A DNA stretch of 64,000 nucleotides from Gilliamella sp. B3022. Its GTDB lineage: Bacteria > Pseudomonadota > Gammaproteobacteria > Enterobacterales > Orbaceae. A program made the position numbers and the translations under genes. The notes beneath the pieces are model-generated. The model searched no databases and was not told the DNA's origin. It was given only the letters and a program-made list of their open reading frames with translations. Every line of letters starts with the position of its first letter. Position 1 is the stretch's first letter. The DNA is taken from positions 682,001-746,000 of the forward strand of contig NZ_CP071867.1 in the NCBI RefSeq assembly GCF_028751545.1, read 5' to 3'. This document shows, one piece after another, positions 35,132-46,917 of the stretch.

Positions 35132-36517
35132 TCATGATGAGATTGCGTTTTTATTATAGTAATACGAAGCTAAAATAATGATAATTAAAACAACTTCTGA
35201 TAATAAAATAAAATGCCCCGACTCACCAAACCACACACCAACAATGATCACAATATTAACAATGATTGAAATTGCTGCTAACCATGGAAATAATGGTGAT
35301 TTAAATTTAATCATCTCTTTAGGGTATTTACCACTATTCACCCCTTTACGAAATTGATACTGACACCAAGCGATAATAATCCACGCAAAACAACCTACTT
35401 GTCCAGTACCTGCAACCAAATAGAGATAAAGCTTTTCCGCGGCAATATATTTAGAAAATAATGAAACTAGAGCAATAATTGCAATAAATAAGATGCCTTT
35501 AGTAGGAACGCCCCGTTTATTGACTTCTGAAAAATATTTAGGCGCTAAATTATCCTGTGCCATAGACCATAACATACGCGAACTGGCATAAATAGCTGAG
35601 TTAGCCGCAGATATCGCAGCACAAAAAATAACGAACAACATCATATAAGAAGCAAAAGTGATACCGACTTTGTTAAATACCCACACAAAGGGACTAATTT
35701 CATCATGCACAGTTCCATAAGGGTAAACTAATGCTAAAATTGCAATAGCTAATACATAAAACAGAATAATTCTAAATGCTACACCTGTAATAATCTTGGG
35801 TAATACTGACTGAGGTGACTCAGCTTCACCAGCGGCACTACCAATTAGCTCAACACCTTGAAATGAATAAGTCACAATGGTCATGCATACAAAAATCGAT
35901 AAAAAACCATTTGGAAACCAGCCTTGTTCTGTTTTAAAAGTAGGTAATATGTGAGTTTGAGTATATTGCTGATAAAGAAGATAAATACCAACACCGATAA
36001 AAGCAATAATTGCCAACACTTTAATGGTTGAAAACCAATATTCACTTTCACCAAAAGCACGGACAGAAGTTAAATGAACTGAGGTAATAACAATTAAAAT
36101 CAATAAGCTAAAAAGATAAATAGGAACAGCAGGAAAAAATTGGTGAGCAATCATAGAAGCGGCAGTTAAATCTGCTGCCATAGACAGAACCCAACTAAGC
36201 CAGTATAACCAACCAATAGTATAACTCCAAATCGGATTTGGAATAAACATTAGTGCATAATGCTGAAAAGAACCCGCATGCGGGAATGCACAAGAAAGCT
36301 CACCTAAACATAACATTGTTGCTAACATTATGCTACCAGCCATTAAATAAGCAATAATAGTTCCTAATGGCCCTACCGTAGTTAATGGCGCAGCGATACC
36401 AATAAATAAACCGGTACCAATCGATCCCCCTAATGAAATCATTAGCAGATGACGATTTTTAAGATTCTTTTTTAAATTACTGAAATTTTGGCTTTGTTGT
36501 GATACTGATGTTGCCAT
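35132..36517 (-). CDS. APC-family amino acid permease (AAT subfamily)
   Basis: A 461-residue, 12-segment inner-membrane amino-acid permease of the amino-acid-transporter group that includes LysP, GabP and RocE. The start region LKNRHLLMISLGGSIGTGLFIG and the GAGSF-like FPHAGSFQHYA motif are diagnostic. The FQGVELIGSAAGEAESP motif (about 211-227) is typical of cation-symport amino-acid permeases. It is the last gene of the four-gene racemase/decarboxylase operon, 56 bp after the racemase gene. I infer that it takes up lysine or ornithine while the other permease exchanges the diamine, but the sequences do not prove which is which. Confidence 0.85.
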   Translation of the reverse strand: MATSVSQQSQNFSNLKKNLKNRHLLMISLGGSIGTGLFIGIAAPLTTVGPLGTIIAYLMAGSIMLATMLCLGELSCAFPHAGSFQHYALMFIPNPIWSYTIGWLYWLSWVLSMAADLTAASMIAHQFFPAVPIYLFSLLILIVITSVHLTSVRAFGESEYWFSTIKVLAIIAFIGVGIYLLYQQYTQTHILPTFKTEQGWFPNGFLSIFVCMTIVTYSFQGVELIGSAAGEAESPQSVLPKIITGVAFRIILFYVLAIAILALVYPYGTVHDEISPFVWVFNKVGITFASYMMLFVIFCAAISAANSAIYASSRMLWSMAQDNLAPKYFSEVNKRGVPTKGILFIAIIALVSLFSKYIAAEKLYLYLVAGTGQVGCFAWIIIAWCQYQFRKGVNSGKYPKEMIKFKSPLFPWLAAISIIVNIVIIVGVWFGESGHFILLSEVVLIIIILASYYYNKNAISS

Positions 36518-36573
36518 GTATAAACCGCCTAATCATTGATAAAAACTGCTGGTTAACCAGCAGTTAACACAAA

Positions 36574-37680
36574 TTAATAGATAAACCGTTTTTCTACACC
36601 ACTAGTTTGACAAGCCATTAGCAAGGCAGTGTAATCAAGCTCAAATCCAATCATATCACCGACTTTAAGATTTTGTGACACATCTTCGATATCGACTAAC
36701 GTATGATCACTGGTTTGACCAAGTACAGTAATATTATCATCGATTGGTACACAGCTTTCAGCCGGAACATCTTGACGTCCAAACGCAAGCAGCGCTCGTT
36801 TACGTATACCATGATCGACAAAAGTTTTACTGTTTAAAAAAGCATCAACACCTAGCTCGCCGACTGGAACGGTTGGTTTACTGTTAAGCTCGATGATTTG
36901 TGCATATAATTTATACATATCACTACAAGCTTTTTCGACAGGTTTATTGGAATGATGAAATTCATCAAGATATTTCATATCCACATACTCAATACCAAAC
37001 TCATGTAAACCACCAATCCGGATATGATTAAGACCTTCTGGCCAGATACCCTTGTCTAATAAGTGATAACTAGTACAATTACCGGCCGATAAATATTGTA
37101 TTTTAATATTGCAAGATTTTTCAACTTTACGCGCAATTTCTAAAAAGTCTACTCCATTTTTAACTGTTGGTAACACAGTACCATAACAGTTAAAATTAGT
37201 ACCTAGCCCATAAAGCTCAACACCCGGTAAAGATAAAATAAGTTTGACCGTATCAATAATTTCATCCAAATGTTCAAACCAAATACCTTCACGTAAATCA
37301 CCCATATCAATCATTAATAAAACTTGGTGAATTTTTTGTTGCTTAACGGCTTCGTCTGAAAGTGCTTGAATCACCACTTTTTCACTATTTAAGCTAATAT
37401 CTGCATATTTAACTATTTCACTAATTTCACTTAAACAAGGACTACGCAATAAGCAGGTTTTACACCCTAAAGCATCTTTAAGTTTCTTCAAATTGTAGGT
37501 TCTTGACTCAGCAATAACATCAATACCTCCATCTAGAACTGCTTTTGCTGTTTCAACACAACCATCAAACACTTTATTAACTGCCATTACTTCAATGCCG
37601 TGTTTAGCAAGCAGCTCTTTTTCAACACGTGCATTGTCTTTTAATTTTCCTAAATCAATTTCCAATACAGGTTTGTACAT
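36574..37680 (-). CDS. PLP-dependent ornithine/alanine-type racemase (Orr-like)
   Basis: A 368-residue cytosolic fold-III PLP enzyme related to ornithine racemase (Orr) and YhfX. The PLP lysine is K36 in VMAVNKVFDG. A second conserved block is YGLGTNFNCYG (about 197-207), and the phosphate-binding region is YLSAGNCTSYHLL. The C-terminal beta domain has GELGVDAFLN and VLGQTSDHTLVD. It sits between two APC permease genes and downstream of a decarboxylase resembling a D-amino-acid-specific enzyme. Conversion of L-ornithine or L-lysine to the D form is therefore the likely role. Alanine racemase proper (Alr) has a different sequence pattern. Its gaps to the flanking permease genes are 19 and 56 bp. 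Confidence 0.82.
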   Translation of the reverse strand: MYKPVLEIDLGKLKDNARVEKELLAKHGIEVMAVNKVFDGCVETAKAVLDGGIDVIAESRTYNLKKLKDALGCKTCLLRSPCLSEISEIVKYADISLNSEKVVIQALSDEAVKQQKIHQVLLMIDMGDLREGIWFEHLDEIIDTVKLILSLPGVELYGLGTNFNCYGTVLPTVKNGVDFLEIARKVEKSCNIKIQYLSAGNCTSYHLLDKGIWPEGLNHIRIGGLHEFGIEYVDMKYLDEFHHSNKPVEKACSDMYKLYAQIIELNSKPTVPVGELGVDAFLNSKTFVDHGIRKRALLAFGRQDVPAESCVPIDDNITVLGQTSDHTLVDIEDVSQNLKVGDMIGFELDYTALLMACQTSGVEKRFIY

Positions 37681-37699
37681 AAATTTACTCCTCTATCTC

Positions 37700-39112
37700 T
37701 TATTGTTGTTGCATGCGATTACGCTTTTGTGCTCTATGGTATATCCACTCCGCTAACACGATAGCAAGCACTGCACCACCAACAATTTTCGCGATATACT
37801 CAACATATCCCCCCATATCAATCTGTGCTGGTGGAATAAACACTAAGATCACCGCAAATAGTGTAGATAAGAATCCTAAACCTGGTAAAACAATCGGTAA
37901 TACTTTACCTGGGATCTTAAAGCTACGTGGTACATCTGGTTGAGTAATACGTAAACGATAGTATGCAATAAACATCACTAAATAAGGAATAAAGTAACAA
38001 ATGGTTGTTAATGCAGTTAACATCCAATATGCAGCAGCAATACTTGGCGATACAAACGTTGAGAAACAAAGTACTGTGACAATGATTGCTTGAATAACTA
38101 AAGCAAATGCTGGAGTTTGATAGACAGGATGTAAATGTCCAACACGTTCACCAAGTAAATTATCTTCTTTTGACGCCTCTTGTAACATATAGATAGGGCC
38201 AACTAACCATGAGTTAATTTGACCTAATGCACCAAAGAATAAACAAATTGCCATTACAGGTAATAACCAAGGCATATGTAACTCTTTAGCCGCTGCTTCC
38301 ATTGCTTGCATTACACCGGCAACAATATCAGTATCAACAGCAGGTAATAAGGTATTAATGGCCCAAGTACCAATCATATAGATACCAACGATAACAATTG
38401 CAGATACCGCCATCGCTTTAGGGAAGTCACGTTGTGGATCACGAGTACGACCAGCAATCATAGGGGCAACTTCAAGTCCAGCAAAAGCAAACATCATACT
38501 TGATAGAAAAACAATGGTATCCCAGCTACTTAAATCCGGAATCCAATCACTAATATGACTATAATCAGTGGCCATTGGGTGACCAGTCATTAGCCACACA
38601 ATGGCTAATAACACGATAATACCAGCAGGAATAAAGACCCCTAACCATGCACTAACACTGTTAATGATTTTAGTCCATTTCAAACCTTTGATATTCATTA
38701 ATGTTAAGATCCAAAATACTACCATGGAACCAACACCAATAAACACCTGATTTTGAGCTAGTTCAGGACTAAACATGTAGCCAATTGCAGTAAAACCAAA
38801 TTGCAACATCAGTGGGAAGAAAAGCACGCATGAGAATAAGAAACAAACAACTACTATCCAACCAACTCGTTTACCAAACGCTTCTTTTACCCAAACAAAA
38901 ATCCCACCATCTTTTGGCCAACCAGTAGAAAGTTCACCACAAACCATTGCTAAAGGAAAAAACAAACAAAATGCAGCAAGGAGCCAAAGCACCATTGCTG
39001 ACGCTCCATAAGGAGCAACATTAGGAATTTGACGTAAACTTAGTATTGCAATGACATTCATAAATACAATGTCTTTAATACCAAGTAAACTTGAATTTTT
39101 AGAATCACTCAT
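37700..39112 (-). CDS. APC-family amino acid/amine antiporter-like permease
   Basis: A 470-residue APC superfamily protein with 12 predicted membrane segments, of the group that includes GadC, AdiC-like and YjeM transporters. The start SLLGIKDIVFMNVIAILSLRQIP and the GGIFVWVKEAFGKRVGW motif (about 68-84) resemble glutamate/GABA-type antiporters. The central FAGLEVAPMIAGRTRDPQRDFPKA (about 209-232) is the conserved APC cytoplasmic loop. The C-terminus is basic and Gln-rich. It lies second in the operon, 53 bp after the decarboxylase. Its position next to a decarboxylase suggests amino-acid/amine exchange (inference). Confidence 0.83.
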   Translation of the reverse strand: MSDSKNSSLLGIKDIVFMNVIAILSLRQIPNVAPYGASAMVLWLLAAFCLFFPLAMVCGELSTGWPKDGGIFVWVKEAFGKRVGWIVVVCFLFSCVLFFPLMLQFGFTAIGYMFSPELAQNQVFIGVGSMVVFWILTLMNIKGLKWTKIINSVSAWLGVFIPAGIIVLLAIVWLMTGHPMATDYSHISDWIPDLSSWDTIVFLSSMMFAFAGLEVAPMIAGRTRDPQRDFPKAMAVSAIVIVGIYMIGTWAINTLLPAVDTDIVAGVMQAMEAAAKELHMPWLLPVMAICLFFGALGQINSWLVGPIYMLQEASKEDNLLGERVGHLHPVYQTPAFALVIQAIIVTVLCFSTFVSPSIAAAYWMLTALTTICYFIPYLVMFIAYYRLRITQPDVPRSFKIPGKVLPIVLPGLGFLSTLFAVILVFIPPAQIDMGGYVEYIAKIVGGAVLAIVLAEWIYHRAQKRNRMQQQ

Positions 39113-39165
39113 AATAACCTCACATTATAATATCTGGGACGATAAGCGCCCCAGATAACTCATGA

Positions 39166-40563
39166 TTAATACACGTCGTATCCAACCATATCCTCGTAAG
39201 TGTCCTCACGGCGAATCAATCGATCTTTACCTTTTTTATCAATCATAACAACAGCAGTACGTGGACGGTTGTTATAAACTGTTTGGCTCTCAATGGTATA
39301 AGCTCCAGCATCAAGGAATGCAATAATATCTCCAACCTGAGTATCTTTTGGTAGCAAGAACTCTTCCCCTTTTACACCAACATGGTAATAGTCACCACCA
39401 TCGCATAAAGGTCCAGCAAGTTTAATGTATTGATCATGCTCTTCGGTAATTTTTGATGCATCATAAACATAGAAGAACCAATCAAAATGCTGACTGTCAG
39501 ATAACACGCTATAGCCTGCGTCAACAAATTTCCACTCAACATGTTCTTCAATGTTTCCGTCTAAATCGTAATTAGTTTTACGTTTTTCACAAGCTACTTC
39601 TGTTAATAATACGGCAGCTGATCCTGTTACTTTACGACCTGGTTCAATACAAATCTCAACATCGGTACGCCATTTATGTACTTCTTTAATTACTGCATCA
39701 GCAAAATGTTGTGCGGTAATACCTGCGTACATATTATCCTGTAATGGATTGCCATTTTCTTCGTCATATTTATATGGAACAGGAATACCACCACCAACAT
39801 TAATTAAATCCAATTTAATACCAAGAACTTCTTCTAAACGGCGTGATTCATCAACTAATACTTTCGTTGCTTTAGCAAAAGGTTCTGCTTCTGGTACTTG
39901 ATCTCCTACGTGCATATGTAAACCACGTAAATGTACATAAGGCATTTCAAGAATACGGCGACAAGTTTCTTCCGCTTGTTCTAAATCGATACCCGATTTA
40001 GCATGATAAGCTGTCACGAGTTCCGCATGCGTCGCTGAAGGTACATTGGGTTCAACACGTACACAAACATTTGCCACTTTCTTCAAACGTCTTGAAATTT
40101 CATCAATTATATCAAGTTCAAATAAGCTATCTACGTTAATAATATAAAGCTCATTTTGGATAGCAAATTCTAAATCAACTGGTTTTTTAACCACACCATT
40201 GAAAACAATTTGACTGCCTGGAAAACCAATCTCTAAACATTTGCGCACTTCAAACATTGAGTTCGCTTCAGCATAAATACCCGCATCTTTAATTGCTTTT
40301 AGCACACCCATTACAGAACATGTTTTTGACGCATAAAAAATCTTAGTGTTTGGATGAGCTTTAAACGAATCTTTGATTTCCTGAATATTACGATCAATTT
40401 CTTTTTCAGAAAATACGTAAAAAGGTGTTGGGTATTTCTTTGCTAATTCTTCTAAATTTATGCCGTCAAAACATAATTTACCGTTTTGAGCACTGAAACG
40501 ACGATCTTTAGTTATTAGATCAGTACGTAATTTGTTATAATTTGACATAATTTTGTCGGACAT
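39166..40563 (-). CDS. Fold-III PLP decarboxylase, probable D-ornithine/D-lysine decarboxylase
   Basis: A 465-residue cytosolic enzyme of the alanine-racemase-fold decarboxylases (diaminopimelate, ornithine, arginine). The PLP lysine is K80 in IFYASKTCS. Further hallmarks are [13 protein letters not shown] (PLP phosphate loop), CIEPGRKV and the second-subunit CDGGDYY motif with the catalytic cysteine. The length and sequence context match the Salmonella STM2360-type D-ornithine/D-lysine decarboxylase rather than LysA, whose ligands and biosynthetic neighbours are absent. Products would be putrescine or cadaverine. First gene of a four-gene operon; a GGAGG site precedes the ATG and a -24/-12 promoter lies upstream. 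Confidence 0.85.
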
Positions 40564-40631
40564 AAGACCTCCAGTTAATTAGTACATAAAAAGTACATAA
40601 GAAAACAAGTAAAATGGCTTCTCACTTGCAA

Positions 40632-40647
40632 TGCAATCAGCATGCCA
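40632..40647 (-). promoter_or_regulatory. Sigma-54 (-24/-12) promoter of the decarboxylase operon
   Basis: Minus-strand TGGCATGCTGATTGCA matches TGGCACGNNNNTTGCA with correct GG/GC spacing. It lies 69-84 bp upstream of the decarboxylase start. The divergent gene encodes a sigma-54 activator. Confidence 0.88.
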
Positions 40648-40730
40648 ACTTATAAATCATAAAAAATCAATTTATTATGAAAATTATTGCAAAAACAATT
40701 TTGGTCATTTTGTTTAAAACCTGTTTTTAT

Positions 40731-40746
40731 GACAAAAATTTGTCAC
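40731..40746. promoter_or_regulatory. Palindromic enhancer candidate for the sigma-54 activator
   Basis: TGACAAAAATTTGTCA is a 7+7 bp palindrome with a 2-bp centre. It lies about 118 bp upstream of the predicted decarboxylase start point and about 83 bp upstream of the activator gene. A related but imperfect TGACCAAAATTG motif occurs about 25 bp nearer the promoter. Position and dyad symmetry fit an upstream activator site. Confidence 0.62.
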
Positions 40747-40828
40747 AAAATCATTAATGGTTGAAAGGTATTAAAATTAACGTAAGCTAAACTTAGCTAA
40801 TAAGCTAAATTAAAAAGGTACTAATATC

Positions 40829-42265
40829 ATGACAATCGATCCTGAATTATTACAATCATTAGAAATATTCAAACATTTTTTTGATTTAATCCATCAGCCA
40901 ATGGCTATTATCGATAAAGAAGGTAAATATATTTATTATAATCGGGAAAGTGCAGAACTTGATGGTTACCCTATGGAGCAAGCTATTGGTAAACCCATGC
41001 TTAAAGTTTATCCTAATTTAAGAAAAGAAGATAGTACCATGTTACAAGCTTTACAACAAGGTAAGGAATATCAGGATAATTACCAAAGCTACTATAATCA
41101 TGTAGGTAAACTGGTTGATTATATGCATACAACCGTACCACTTTATAACAAGCATAAAGATATTATTGGTGCGATCGAAATAGGACGAAATTTATCAACT
41201 GTTAGGCAGCTACACGATCAAGTATTCAAACTCAATAGTAAATTATACCAAAATAAAGATCAGCCATTGCCTGAAATAGTTTTTGTATCACAAAAAATGC
41301 AAAAGGTTATTGATCAAACAAATATTTTAGGAGCAAATGATGTCCCAGTATTAATTGTCGGTGAAACTGGAACTGGTAAAGAGCTTTTTGCTCATTTGAT
41401 TCATCAAACAAGTCATCGCCGTAATAAAGCGTTTATTTCGTTAAACTGTAGTGCTTTACCTACCACATTGATAGAAAGTACCTTATTTGGAACGATGAAA
41501 GGAGCCTTTACTGGAGCCGAAAACCATCCAGGTTATTTAGAACTGGCTAATGGCGGCACACTATTTCTTGATGAACTTAATGCTATGCCACTGGATATGC
41601 AAAGCAAATTACTGAGATTTTTACAAGAAAAGACTTACTGGCCATTAGGGGGCAATAAAGAGCTACACGCCGATGTTAGAATTGTTGCCGCCATGAATGA
41701 ATCACCAGCAGAGTTGTTAAAAACAGGGAAAATGCGAAGTGACCTATTTTATCGATTAAATGTCGGATTAATTAAACTTCCAGCCCTTCGTGAAAGAAAA
41801 GAAGATATTCCTGTATTGGCGCGATACTTTATTGATAAACATAAAGCGGATGTAAATGTTGTGATAACAGGCATTAGTGAGCACGCATTACAACAACTCA
41901 TGTCGGCACCTTGGCCGGGAAATGTGAGGATGCTGGAAAATGCAATCGTACGAAGTATAGTCTTACAAAATGAACCGGGAGAATTGCAACAAATTATCCT
42001 TGATGATGAACTGTTTGACATTCATAGCCCTTACCCACAAGATCAATTCGAAACGAAATTTGAAAAACAAAGTACGAGCATGACCGCTGGCAACATTAAC
42101 TTAACTGTACAAGTTGAAAATTATGAAAAACAACTTATTATTGATGCTTTAAATCAAACCAACGGCAAAATTATTGCTGCCGCAAAATTATTAAATATTT
42201 CACGGACGACATTACAATATAAAGTAAAAAAATATCATATTCAAATGGGGGTAATAGGTAACTAA
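40829..42265 (+). CDS. PAS-domain sigma-54-dependent transcriptional activator
   Basis: A 478-residue bacterial enhancer-binding protein. A PAS sensor (about 10-120, including YIYYNRESAELDGYP) precedes an AAA+ domain (about 150-385) with Walker A GETGTGKE at 178-185, the sigma-54 loop GAFTGA at 225-230 and Walker B GGTLFLDE at 242-249. The C-terminus is a Fis-like helix-turn-helix (GKIIAAAKLLNISRTTLQYKVKKY). There is no receiver domain, so it senses a ligand or redox state through PAS rather than phosphorylation. It is divergent from the decarboxylase operon and should activate the -24/-12 promoter between them. The arrangement resembles the Salmonella STM2361-STM2360 pair. Confidence 0.9.
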   Translation: MTIDPELLQSLEIFKHFFDLIHQPMAIIDKEGKYIYYNRESAELDGYPMEQAIGKPMLKVYPNLRKEDSTMLQALQQGKEYQDNYQSYYNHVGKLVDYMHTTVPLYNKHKDIIGAIEIGRNLSTVRQLHDQVFKLNSKLYQNKDQPLPEIVFVSQKMQKVIDQTNILGANDVPVLIVGETGTGKELFAHLIHQTSHRRNKAFISLNCSALPTTLIESTLFGTMKGAFTGAENHPGYLELANGGTLFLDELNAMPLDMQSKLLRFLQEKTYWPLGGNKELHADVRIVAAMNESPAELLKTGKMRSDLFYRLNVGLIKLPALRERKEDIPVLARYFIDKHKADVNVVITGISEHALQQLMSAPWPGNVRMLENAIVRSIVLQNEPGELQQIILDDELFDIHSPYPQDQFETKFEKQSTSMTAGNINLTVQVENYEKQLIIDALNQTNGKIIAAAKLLNISRTTLQYKVKKYHIQMGVIGN

Positions 42266-44237: not shown

Positions 44238-45467
44238 TTAGGATTTATTAATATCACCAATGTATTTAAAAGACTTTTTGTTGTTTGAAAATATGAAACA
44301 AAATAGCGCTGCAAATGTTAAAATAGACACAGCCCCCCATACTGTTCTCCATCCATAACCATGTGCAACACGGGAAACTAAAATAGGTGTCAAAAACGAT
44401 GAAATGAACACGGTTGTACCGACCATACCTAATGCTGTTCCTGCACGTTCAACGCCAGCTTTTATTGCAGATTCTGTATAAGCAATACCATGCCATGCAT
44501 GGCCAAACAAACCAGTTAATACAAGAAATACAACGCCTATATACATATTATCAACCATAAAACAAAGCACGAGAGAAGCACTTCCACCAAGAATAGCATA
44601 GTACTTTAATAACGAAATACGATTCTTTTTTTTATCCGTATAGTAACCTGACCAAATCCTAAGGATTCCCCCACCAATCTGAACACCAATGAGAATGATA
44701 GAGATCAACGTCAAATTTATATTTAGCACATCTCGCATATAGACGCCTCCAAAAGTGAGTACGGCCATTTGTGGTACCGTTAGGAAACCAGCAGACAAAA
44801 CAACTCTCCAAACTTCAATATTTTTTAGGGGTGAAGGTAAGATAAAATTAGATTGGGATGCATTTTTTAATTCAGTATGTTTAGAGTTGATAAATAAAAC
44901 AGTAATAAGACCAACAGTAAACGCTGTGATAGCTAAAACAATAAAAGTAACTTTAAAACCGTATGAATAAGCTAGCCAAGGTAGCAAACCCGTGCCAATA
45001 GCACCACCAATAGGAATTGCAGTTTGACGAATACTCATGGCAAAGCCTCGTTCACTATCATCAAACCATGACATCACCGTTCTTCCTGATGATGAGTTAA
45101 TGCTTCCCCCAAAAGCTCCTGTTATTGCAAAAGCGGCTGCCAAGTGTAGATATTTAACGCCACCAGAAGAGGTCTCGGATGTAAACAATATAGCAATTAT
45201 CAAAAACATCACTGCTGATGACCATAGTCCTAAAATTAGAACGGTCTTATCGCCTAGTTTATCGGTAAGGATTCCCCAAATTATCTCTGAAGCGGCAACT
45301 CCTAGCCCCATTGAACCTAATACAAAACCAAGCTCATATAACGAAAAATGATACACATCACGCATCAAAATTCCCGTTATAGGAATTCCTGCAAACCCCA
45401 TGGCGAATGTTGCTTGTGCAAGTACACCTATTCCAAGCACAAACCAACGATAATTATTTTTTTTCAT
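44238..45467 (-). CDS. Major facilitator superfamily transporter
   Basis: A 409-residue inner-membrane transporter with 12 predicted segments. The inter-helix loop GILTDKLGDKTVLILG (about 64-79) is the MFS motif A. GRTVMSWFDDSERGFAMSIRQTAIPIGGAIG (about 127-157) resembles the corresponding region of oxalate/formate-antiporter-like and NarK-like carriers. The second half contains the repeat-related GYYTDKKKNRI. The substrate cannot be named. It is followed by a long spacer and preceded by a striking palindrome and, 860 bp away and divergent, a TetR regulator that may control it. Confidence 0.85.
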   Translation of the reverse strand: MKKNNYRWFVLGIGVLAQATFAMGFAGIPITGILMRDVYHFSLYELGFVLGSMGLGVAASEIIWGILTDKLGDKTVLILGLWSSAVMFLIIAILFTSETSSGGVKYLHLAAAFAITGAFGGSINSSSGRTVMSWFDDSERGFAMSIRQTAIPIGGAIGTGLLPWLAYSYGFKVTFIVLAITAFTVGLITVLFINSKHTELKNASQSNFILPSPLKNIEVWRVVLSAGFLTVPQMAVLTFGGVYMRDVLNINLTLISIILIGVQIGGGILRIWSGYYTDKKKNRISLLKYYAILGGSASLVLCFMVDNMYIGVVFLVLTGLFGHAWHGIAYTESAIKAGVERAGTALGMVGTTVFISSFLTPILVSRVAHGYGWRTVWGAVSILTFAALFCFIFSNNKKSFKYIGDINKS

Positions 45468-46329
45468 TCTTTCGTGATCCTTATTTTCAATTAAATACCT
45501 ACTAGTATGTATTTAAACATAACTTGAAATATTTGTATATAAAAATAAAATTAGATATATAAATGAATAATTGACATTAATTATTATCTGATGAAGTTAT
45601 TATTTATTTTATCAAAAATAGACTAATTGGTATTTTTTGGTATGAAAGTAATGGGCAATAATGATGACTAATGTAATGATTAATAGTTTTATCTTATTAA
45701 GTGATGTTTATACATATTCTGGAAATAAATCCATATAATATAAGATTACATTATAAAACAATCAGTTACATTAAGTTTAACAAACAATAATTAGCGAGTT
45801 ATAATACATGAGAAATGTAATACTGATAATCCTACATTATCTCATTACTAAATTGATGTCATACGAAAATCTGCAAATGCAGTTAATGATGAGAAAAAAT
45901 CAAATAATAATATGTATTATAATATGAAAATAAACATTTCATTATTTAAAACTTTCATACACAACGCATTTAGTTAGATGTACTACTTGTAAACGTTGAT
46001 ATTAAATAAGTATTATGATAGTTATTACTCAAGCCATGACAGAGTTTTAATTATTAATGTTATTTTAAAAATAGAGAAAGAAGTGACACATCAATAACTA
46101 ATTAATACTATTAAAAAGTAATTAATTCAAGAACGATGGATGGTATACTTGTTTATAGAAAAGTTGAAATTGTTTTAACAAAAGTTATTAATGACAACCT
46201 ATCTAAAGTTATTAGTTAGTAGGACAAAGAAAGCAACAAGAATTAAACCATTTAGTAGATATAATTTTACTGTTTAAATAATTATTCAATTAAACATGTC
46301 AATATTACTGATCGGTATAATGGTATTTT
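45468..46329. other. 862-bp gene-free AT-rich region between the MFS and TetR genes
   Basis: Very low GC and stop codons in every frame. Apart from the palindrome close to the MFS start I find no gene, RNA or repeat family. Short open frames here lack protein-like composition. The length is unusual for a divergent promoter region and may be the residue of lost genes. Confidence 0.5.
45491..45516. promoter_or_regulatory. 26-bp palindromic operator candidate upstream of the MFS gene
   Basis: TTAAATAC at 45491-45498 and GTATTTAA at 45509-45516 flank the perfect core TACTAGTA, with one mismatched pair (45499/45508). It lies 24-49 bp upstream of the MFS start codon, overlapping the expected promoter. 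Such a dyad suits a TetR-family dimer, and the nearest regulator gene is the divergent TetR. Confidence 0.6.
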
Positions 46330-46917
46330 GTGAAGAAAATGAATAATAACCAAAACACTAAACGAAATTCGAGAGAAAAGCTAATCAAAGCAATGGCCGA
46401 TCTTTTGTTGGAAAAAGGTCTAGCTAGTACTAGTCCAAATGACATTTTGACTCGAGCAGAAGTCGGTCAAGGTAGTCTCTACCACTATTTTACAGGTAAA
46501 GAGGATTTGTCCCTATACGCAATAAAATACAATGTAGAACAATTAATAAACTTTAATACTTCAATTCTAAATTCAGATAAAGATGCATACAATAAACTTT
46601 CAGATCTTCTTCTAAAATCTCGTAATATAGATAGAGGTTGTTTGATTGGTCAACTCGCTCGAGATAGAGCAATTATGGAAAATGAAGCTTTAGCAACAGA
46701 AGTGACTCGTGGATTTGAATTCATGCAACAAACATTCACTAGCATTATAAATAGCGGAATTTCTGATGGAAGCATTTCTAATAAACTTGCGCCTTTAGAG
46801 GCGGTAACACTGATAATATCAACTTTGCAAGGTGCCTACATTTCTGCAAAAGGGTTACAAGATGACTCATATTTTCGCATAACGATTAATACATTATTGA
46901 AAATATTTACTCCATAG
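46330..46917 (+). CDS. TetR-family transcriptional regulator
   Basis: A 195-residue regulator. The N-terminal helix-turn-helix (about 14-60) reads REKLIKAMADLLLEKGLASTS, then ILTRAEVGQGSLYHYFTGKEDL, which is the TetR pattern. The C-terminal ligand domain resembles the AcuR/YxaF-like group (FTSIINSGISDGSIS and a helical tail). The first codon is GTG at 46330, with ATG at 46339 as an alternative; no strong ribosome binding site is seen for either. It is divergent from the MFS gene and is its most likely repressor, by proximity only. Confidence 0.87.
   Translation: MKKMNNNQNTKRNSREKLIKAMADLLLEKGLASTSPNDILTRAEVGQGSLYHYFTGKEDLSLYAIKYNVEQLINFNTSILNSDKDAYNKLSDLLLKSRNIDRGCLIGQLARDRAIMENEALATEVTRGFEFMQQTFTSIINSGISDGSISNKLAPLEAVTLIISTLQGAYISAKGLQDDSYFRITINTLLKIFTP

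Follow-up and report, generated by a model that had tools for sequence, protein, structure and literature searches.

A sigma-54-linked operon with a predicted D-ornithine/D-lysine decarboxylase and an Orr-like racemase in the bee gut bacterium Gilliamella

The window analysed here is a stretch of 64,000 nucleotides from Gilliamella sp. B3022 (Orbaceae), a bee gut bacterium. Five open reading frames were found exactly where an earlier examination of the bare letters (the sequence-only reading) had placed them, and the gene identities given there agreed with the family profile matches (DokD, Orr-like racemase, GadC-like antiporter, AAT-type permease and activator; Table 1). The four minus-strand genes are separated by 56, 19 and 53 bases, which is consistent with a single operon. 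GC content was 36.1% in the operon vs. 35.8% in the flanks, and GC3 was 22.5-26.8% vs. 24.1% in gltB; a recent foreign origin was rejected, as the composition gave no hint of one.

Table 1. Genes and control elements of the Gilliamella locus (positions in the window).
Feature	Position	Strand	Remarks
AAT-type amino acid permease	35132..36517	-	PF00324 328 bits
Orr-like racemase (predicted fold-III PLP enzyme)	36574..37680	-	NF040742 367 bits, cut-off 480
GadC-like APC antiporter	37700..39112	-	PF13520
DokD, fold-III PLP decarboxylase (D-ornithine/D-lysine, predicted)	39166..40563	-	NF052544 884 bits
Sigma-54 -24/-12 promoter TGGCATGCTGATTGCA	40647-40632	-	68 bases upstream of DokD ATG
Candidate IHF-like site AATCAATTTATTA	40665..40677		between enhancer and promoter
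Putative second activator half-site TGACCAAAATT	40697..40707	-	GACNAA
Proposed activator-binding palindrome (UAS) TGACAAATTTTTGTCA	40730..40745		conserved spacing
Divergent sigma-54 activator, STM2361 counterpart	40829..42265	+	PAS, AAA+ GAFTGA, Fis-type HTH

The decarboxylase is DokD, with a predicted specificity for D-ornithine and D-lysine. In an NCBIfam profile search it scored 884.1 bits against NF052544 (cut-off 700), and its closest PDB sequence was the D-ornithine/D-lysine decarboxylase 6n2h, to which it aligned over 465 aa without gaps. K80, C387, D388 and Y430 are all in place and were kept in 13/13 aligned DokD-family rows. As marks of a diaminopimelate decarboxylase (LysA) we took the Glu of the CE motif and the Arg of the RPxLY motif, whose roles are in part our assumption; DokD has neither. 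It carries CDGGD where LysA has CESSD, the motif Glu being replaced by Asp388 in 13/13 DokD-family rows, and the same 13 rows have Asp opposite the RPALY Arg of the LysA encoded by this genome. According to the available part of PMC8277567, mutants and docking connect three residues of a DAP decarboxylase, a Glu and two Arg, with the distal group, and ODC/ADC carry Asp at that Glu position; the importance of C387 and Y430 is taken from an excerpt of PMC13294871 and the title of a reference. It is extremely improbable that the DokD assignment is mistaken and the enzyme acts on L-ornithine/L-lysine or is an additional diaminopimelate decarboxylase: it barely exceeds the cut-off of the lysA model TIGR01048 (298.4 vs. 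297.9), but its score against the DokD model is approximately three times as high, both LysA residues are absent and the genome encodes a separate LysA.

The racemase scored 367.4 bits against the Orr model NF040742 (nearly full-length match), which is under the curated cut-off, and it is therefore called Orr-like only. NF040742 was matched by 19/19 aligned relatives, and the aligned racemases have an invariant VNKVF with K36, which we take to be the PLP lysine. A PDB sequence search at 1e-3 gave no match for this protein. We propose ornithine (lysine) as its probable substrate. The Orr of Clostridia shares with it the NF040742 model and the proposed reaction from L-ornithine to D-ornithine (PMC8803604, in the portion available), although the Gilliamella protein falls under the curated cut-off. 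The following step also differs, as decarboxylation would come next in Gilliamella vs. the OraSE aminomutase in clostridial ornithine degradation.

The best NCBIfam match of the GadC-like protein was the Gln/GABA antiporter (322 bits vs. a cut-off of 650), and it reached no curated cut-off of the GadC, PotE or CadB antiporter subfamilies; the AAT-type permease reached none of the listed curated transporter cut-offs. We propose that the former is an amino acid/diamine exchanger and the latter an importer of an L or D amino acid. SpeF-PotE, CadA-CadB and GadB-GadC are decarboxylase/antiporter pairs and, as in these, the Gilliamella decarboxylase adjoins an APC antiporter; proton consumption coupled to exchange is likely common to all of them. 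The Gilliamella operon differs in its fold-III, predicted D-specific enzyme with a racemase, in its sigma-54 control, and in an antiporter that lies outside every curated subfamily.

Control by sigma-54, as suggested in the sequence-only reading, was borne out by the -24/-12 promoter, an activator with GAFTGA (seen in the alignment) and a single rpoN copy in the genome. The activator harbours PF00158 (209 bits), PAS_4 and HTH_8 domains. The promoter TGGCATGCTGATTGCA has one mismatch to the searched pattern and the full mark in a weighted scheme, a score equalled by 1/6800 random sequences of matched dinucleotide make-up. Scores were 12.5-14.5 (of 14.5) in 38/38 activator-bearing loci and 9.0-11.0 in ten scored loci without the activator; no good -24/-12 match was found in L021 (Gilliamella sp. 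Choc4-2), L031 and eight scored lone DokD loci. Expression of the L021 operon is predicted not to depend on RpoN.

Each of the 34 regions compared, from Gilliamella and enteric bacteria, had its best match to the palindrome 80-83 bases from the -24 element, with 12-16 of 16 letters in agreement. The offset of GACNAA from the palindrome was exactly +23 in 22/25 Gilliamella and 8/9 enteric regions. The IHF-like site, for which we used what we take to be the IHF consensus, lies 16-18 bases upstream of the -24 element in 24/25 Gilliamella regions and at 17 bases in 5/9 enteric regions (1.9% of random sequences). The 2.6 Mb genome has only one exact match to TGACRAAWTTTYGTCA, which is the palindrome itself. 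These data point to a sigma-54 control region of fixed spacing that appears to be common to Gilliamella and enteric bacteria, composed of a palindrome near TGACRAAWTTTYGTCA, the half-site, the IHF-like site and the -24/-12 promoter. The activator would bind at the palindrome. In one Gilliamella the activator, the -24/-12 promoter and the palindrome have decayed together, and the four operon genes are without stops. Covariation of the activator recognition helix with the changed Edwardsiella palindrome was not supported, SRTTLQYKV being identical in Edwardsiella and Gilliamella. The palindrome pattern with up to one mismatch gave four matches in the genome and the reversed control likewise four, so no regulon was inferred.

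The operon is the counterpart of Salmonella STM2360-2357/STM2361, which is reported to be sigma-54-dependent (PMC3844500) and whose STM2360 is a known D-ornithine/D-lysine decarboxylase. This likeness had been noted in the sequence-only reading and holds: Salmonella loci L028 and L030 share the Gilliamella order of DokD, GadC-like antiporter, Orr-like racemase, AAT permease and divergent activator, with identities of 83, 81, 76, 60-61 and 55% respectively. The promoter is of the same class and at a similar distance in both. Its Salmonella counterpart, TGGCATGCCTTTTGCT, is among the sigma-54-bound promoters, a result obtained with the promiscuous activator DctD250 and not with STM2361 itself; the LT2 operon is given there as STM2360-56, with ubiX as the last gene (PMC3844500). 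STM2361 is entered with unknown binding site and signal in the accessible text of a review that surveyed the enhancer-binding proteins of Salmonella in 2016 (PMC4987338). Salmonella has an additional inducible L-ornithine decarboxylase (PMC13294871), whereas no fold-I enzyme over the cut-off was found in Gilliamella.

Among 52 fetched DokD loci, 40 have a racemase and a GadC-like gene near DokD, a linkage spanning Salmonella, Edwardsiella, Mixta, Sutterella, Photobacterium, Syntrophomonas and Veillonellaceae. This indicates a gene set beyond chance and supports the earlier suggestion that the racemase is coupled to the D-specific decarboxylase. The GadC-like gene is present in 40/40 racemase-bearing loci and the AAT-type permease in 39/40. 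The racemase is absent from 11/52 loci, indicating that DokD can occur without it; a twelfth locus, L053, ends at a contig edge. In the Veillonellaceae version (L031), PotE comes directly after DokD (589.6 bits vs. the NF007938 cut-off of 409), and the lone DokD of L032 is preceded by an ArgT-like binding protein (lysine/arginine/ornithine) that stays under its cut-offs; both neighbours are pointers to the substrate. DokD is present in 32/35 Gilliamella genomes and was found in 0/9 genomes of other Orbaceae genera. In a tree of 26 chosen DokD rows, Gilliamella grouped with Photobacterium, Sutterella, Bacillota and Desulfobacterium rows in a clade whose support was 93/95, not full.

In the window genome no PF01276 (fold-I) decarboxylase was found over the cut-off, and PF02784 matched LysA and DokD only. 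Both results extend to the genus, with 0/35 Gilliamella genomes having a fold-I enzyme over the cut-off and 0/35 a PF02784 decarboxylase beyond LysA and DokD (five of the 35 are below 90% complete). Such a background, with DokD in most of the genomes, would fit an operon serving putrescine biosynthesis for the cell's own use where an L-specific decarboxylase is lacking. We nevertheless consider polyamine supply improbable, as the near-complete genomes G029 and G030 lack DokD as well as these decarboxylases, the operon encodes an antiporter, and no spermidine synthase (SpeE) was found in the window genome. In other Gilliamella, PF01564 matches were weak or came from long SpeE-like membrane proteins; eight genomes of the genus have such matches 4.0-4.8 kb from DokD. 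In the loci, the SpeE-like proteins (437-540 aa, with a partner of 204-217 aa) were observed in 6/24 Gilliamella loci, where the pair occupies the place that gltB has in the other 18; the L009 pair, the sole one scanned, reached 65 and 49 bits vs. cut-offs of 260 and 472. The window has no such pair, and a spermidine synthase was rejected as operon partner. The available part of PMC7857480 also regards a role of D-ODC in polyamine metabolism as unlikely. Arginine deiminase as the ornithine source was rejected too, the sole PF02274 (ADI family) match in the window genome being partial (256 aa, 28.9 bits, above the Pfam cut-off of 22.8). This genome thereby yielded no established ornithine source, which counts against the antiport reading given below.

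Of the three aims suggested earlier (acid resistance, polyamine supply and use of D-amino acids), acid/energy exchange fits best, while polyamine (spermidine) supply is weakened by the missing spermidine synthase. The operon is probably a sigma-54-switched module for ornithine (and lysine) decarboxylation and antiport via the D-enantiomer. An activating signal, probably sensed by the PAS domain, would switch on the divergent activator, which, at the upstream palindrome and half-site and aided by an IHF-type bend, would open the -24/-12 promoter. Import of ornithine or lysine would fall to the AAT-type permease and the GadC-like antiporter, the racemase would interconvert the L and D forms, and DokD would decarboxylate the D form with proton uptake. 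The resulting putrescine or cadaverine would leave via the GadC-like antiporter. Overall, much like SpeF-PotE or GadB-GadC, the module would consume protons and build up a charge gradient. We infer the physiological aim and a flux that leads from the L form through the D form to the diamine.

Flux could also run the other way if the permeases imported D-ornithine and D-lysine of the gut, DokD disposed of them and the racemase returned part from D to L. Racemases are reversible and work both ways, and the DokD loci without racemase fit the use of outside D-amino acids. Such scavenging is rather unlikely, however, because decarboxylation of a D substrate needs no racemase, and the constant presence of the GadC-like antiporter in racemase loci, together with the ornithine/putrescine PotE (curated model) beside DokD in L031, points to product export.

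Since the Salmonella operon has already been published, together with its promoter and enzyme, the cluster is less new than first thought. New here are the control-region layout, the joint decay case, the genus-wide DokD survey and the Veillonellaceae PotE version. We tentatively suggest that in Gilliamella, a core bee-gut genus, the sole diamine-forming decarboxylation may be stereo-inverting, with a D-amino acid as obligate antiport intermediate, and that the sigma-54 palindrome may be the operator of the STM2361 family. In the accessible section of a 2024 Orbaceae trait table, six Gilliamella columns are empty in the L-ornithine and L-lysine decarboxylase rows (PMC11434166). Gilliamella offers a clean background, in which, without a fold-I decarboxylase, L-ornithine/L-lysine decarboxylase tests would read the D-route directly. 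An orphan operon thereby becomes testable, the comparison yields a concrete operator and promoter layout for the STM2361 family, and a bee symbiont would be tied to gut diamine output.

The dokD operon is real and well conserved. All five open reading frames described in the sequence-only reading were found, with unchanged coordinates, and the four minus-strand genes are separated by 56, 19 and 53 bases. DokD exceeded its family cut-off and aligned with PDB 6n2h (a D-ornithine/D-lysine decarboxylase) over 465 residues with no gaps, bearing out the resemblance to the Salmonella enzyme claimed in that reading. The racemase showed the proposed Orr-like family resemblance, but its score was below the cut-off. 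The window occupies bases 682001-746000 of a single-contig genome of 2.6 Mb that carries one rpoN copy. The nearest loci by DokD are from Gilliamella (91-98% identity), which places the host in that genus. The MFS transporter and TetR-type regulator look inserted in the window, since only ~400 bases separate the flavoprotein gene from gltB in a close relative (L002).

Features of the dokD locus and of related loci, with family-scan results
Feature	Location	Strand	Family scan
DokD		minus	NF052544, 884.1 bits (cut-off 700)
GadC-like APC antiporter		minus	best 322 bits (cut-off 650)
Orr-like racemase		minus	367.4 bits (cut-off 480)
AAT-type permease		minus	under every cut-off listed
Activator		plus	PAS, sigma-54 AAA+ and Fis-type HTH domains
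Divergent gap, operon to plus-strand activator (265 bases)	window 40564-40828		
MFS transporter and TetR-type regulator, between flavoprotein gene and gltB	window 44238-46917	minus; plus	
SpeE-like cassette	L009:4469-6623		
SpeE-like cassette	L011:4700-6962		
Kluyvera genomosp. 3 operon genes	L034:10001-15436		
ADI-family protein, 256 aa	L058:1297-2067 (G000:C1 near 2339233)		28.9 bits, part of model

The sigma-54 control predicted in the sequence-only reading is supported by a -24/-12 element (TGGCATGCTGATTGCA) 68 bases upstream of the ATG and by the divergent sigma-54 AAA+ activator. Every one of the 38 activator-bearing loci had a best -24/-12 score of 12.5-14.5 (maximum 14.5), against 9.0-11.0 for the 10 activator-less loci scored (L047, L048, L051 and L052 were left out, and the upstream stretch of loci without a divergent activator was set by hand at approximately 200-260 bases). 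A set of 6800 random sequences, matched in dinucleotide composition to the 34 regions from Gilliamella and enteric bacteria, scored at least 12.5 in 2.4% of cases and 14.5 in 0.015%. PMC3844500 lists Salmonella STM2360-56 among the operons with sigma-54-dependent up-regulation (table value 100, taken as the fold change) and its promoter, TGGCATGCCTTTTGCT, among the sigma-54-bound sites; the promiscuous activator DctD250 was used in that work, which leaves STM2361's own control of the operon a prediction. Sigma-54 probably serves further genes, since rpoN was present in all 44 Orbaceae genomes examined and the window's genome has five PF00158 matches.

The candidate activator-binding site is palindromic and 16 bases long; it reads TGACAAATTTTTGTCA in the window and sits 80-83 bases from -24 in each of the 34 regions, Gilliamella and enteric alike. 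The enteric form, TGACGAATTTTCGTC(A/G), was found in 4 of 9 rows, and another 3 carry close variants. The pattern TGACRAAWTTTYGTCA was matched at 16 letters in 20/34 regions and at least 15 in 30/34 (lowest, 12 letters, in Edwardsiella), and 1 of the 6800 random sequences reached 15 letters; as the pattern was built from the same sequences it scores, these values are no independent test, and the fixed distance across genera and the retained symmetry are better evidence. In two Edwardsiella loci (L024 and L026) the outer arms are altered in step (CGCC...GGCG), retaining the symmetry. The recognition-helix stretch of their activator, SRTTLQYKV, is unchanged despite the altered arms. A half-site, GACNAA, lies exactly +23 from the palindrome in 22/25 Gilliamella and 8/9 enteric rows, and an IHF-like site, called with the IHF consensus, lies 16-18 bases before -24 in 24/25 and 5/9 respectively (1.9% in random sequences). 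The exact palindrome pattern occurs once in the window's genome, upstream of the dokD operon. A -24/-12 is retained at five other loci (two from Sutterella, two from Syntrophomonadaceae, one from Photobacterium), with palindrome matches of only 12-14 letters at other distances. The putative control region is newly delineated here; PMC4987338 lists neither a binding site nor a signal as known for STM2361.

Gilliamella sp. Choc4-2 (L021) shows a natural loss: its activator is a broken N-terminal remnant of ~200 bases. Its best -24/-12 match scores a reduced 10.5, and its palindrome is altered in the left arm; the DokD, GadC-like, racemase and permease genes are free of stops. Judged from these sequences, activator, promoter and palindrome have decayed jointly in this one genome, with the enzymes open. 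Compared to the window, its DokD has 34 replacement and 141 silent codons (26-31 and 137-159 in six other Gilliamella), and its racemase 45 and 124 (28-37 and 112-137 in other Gilliamella). These replacement counts are slightly the highest among the seven, and silent changes still predominate; selection after the activator loss is not proved by this, since most codon changes may be older than the loss.

To compare residues, 13 DokD-family rows were aligned with the host's own LysA, which is separately encoded in the window's genome. K80, R310, C387 and Y430 of DokD are also present in LysA, the Glu-Ser pair within the LysA motif is replaced by D388 and G389, and the Arg of the LysA RPALY motif lies opposite Asp in 13/13 rows. 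For the DAP decarboxylase of Thermotoga, mutants and docking are reported to show that Glu315 and a pair of Arg interact with the distal group, and ODC and ADC carry Asp at position 315 (PMC8277567). We infer that Glu315 is the Glu of the LysA motif aligned to D388, and that this pair of Arg includes the one in RPALY. The DokD residues fit a basic side chain rather than that of DAP. Pointing the other way, DokD also clears the TIGR01048 threshold for LysA, at 298.4 against 297.9, a margin of half a bit.

The genome collection, scanned once, yielded 52 DokD loci, with neighbouring genes called by tblastn at 1e-10. In 40/52, both the racemase and the GadC-like antiporter are encoded close to DokD, accompanied by the AAT permease in 39 of these 40, and the activator was found in 38/52. 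Neither racemase nor GadC-like gene was found in 11 loci (L032, L039, L040, L043-L045 and L048-L052, of which L051 is a 4.4 kb contig); L053, truncated by the contig end and from the same MAG as L047, was counted as the twelfth locus outside the 40. Synteny with Salmonella, proposed earlier as a check, was complete in gene order in two loci (L028 and L030). The Salmonella enzyme is already in print: STM2360 is a D-ornithine/D-lysine decarboxylase (Phillips and others 2017, 2019; cited in PMC7857480 and PMC9965611), and its activity on D-ornithine was put to use in PMC13294871. A Veillonellaceae locus (L031) has the order GadC-like gene, racemase, DokD and PotE-type ornithine/putrescine antiporter (NF007938, 589.6 bits vs cut-off 409; TIGR04299, 533.3 vs 560, slightly under), without the AAT permease, and in Brenneria (L032) an ArgT-like binding protein, under its cut-offs, precedes a lone DokD. 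These two neighbours are the best pointers to ornithine/putrescine.

In Kluyvera genomosp. 3 all four operon genes match as several overlapping pieces, perhaps due to sequencing frameshifts. A two-gene cassette encoding a SpeE-like membrane protein (437-540 aa) and a partner (204-217 aa) adjoins the flavoprotein gene in six loci (L009, L011, L013, L014, L016 and L036), in the position held by gltB in 18 other Gilliamella loci.

The survey covered 44 Orbaceae genomes, 35 of the window's genus and 9 from four other genera. DokD (at least 91% identity) was present in 32/35 genomes of the genus (28/30 near-complete ones), counting one in which it is split over two contigs (G032), and in 0/9 of the others; the genomes of the genus without it are G029, G030 and G033 (59% complete). 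The fold-I ornithine/lysine/arginine decarboxylase family PF01276 exceeded its cut-off in 0/35 genomes of the genus and 3/9 outside, a count leaving out 11 sub-cut-off matches (18.2-20.8 bits) spread over ten of the 35. PF02784 matched at two places, positioned as LysA and DokD, in 31 of the 35, at one in G029 and in G030, and at none in G033; in G032 (67% complete) both matches are pieces of DokD. A SpeA-sized second PF02784 match was found only in G042, from another genus. The near-complete G029 and G030 have neither DokD nor PF01276 over the cut-off, and their single PF02784 match is placed like LysA. The ADI-family protein of the window's genome, whose match of 28.9 bits spans part of the model, was not taken as a typical arginine deiminase.

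The literature search, judged mostly from its listings and with most subscription papers outside it, showed no account of this operon for Gilliamella and none of a site for the activator; the ornithine and lysine decarboxylase entries in PMC11434166 read 'no data' in all six Gilliamella columns. In the Gilliamella host, no decarboxylase of this type other than DokD seems to be present. In the probable route, proposed here in the L-to-D direction, ornithine or lysine would be taken into the cell and converted to the D form by the racemase; DokD would then remove CO2, consuming a proton, and the resulting diamine would exit by antiport. Since the antiporter is present in every racemase-bearing locus, PotE accompanies DokD in L031 and spermidine synthase had no match in the window's genome, exchange is favoured over polyamine supply.
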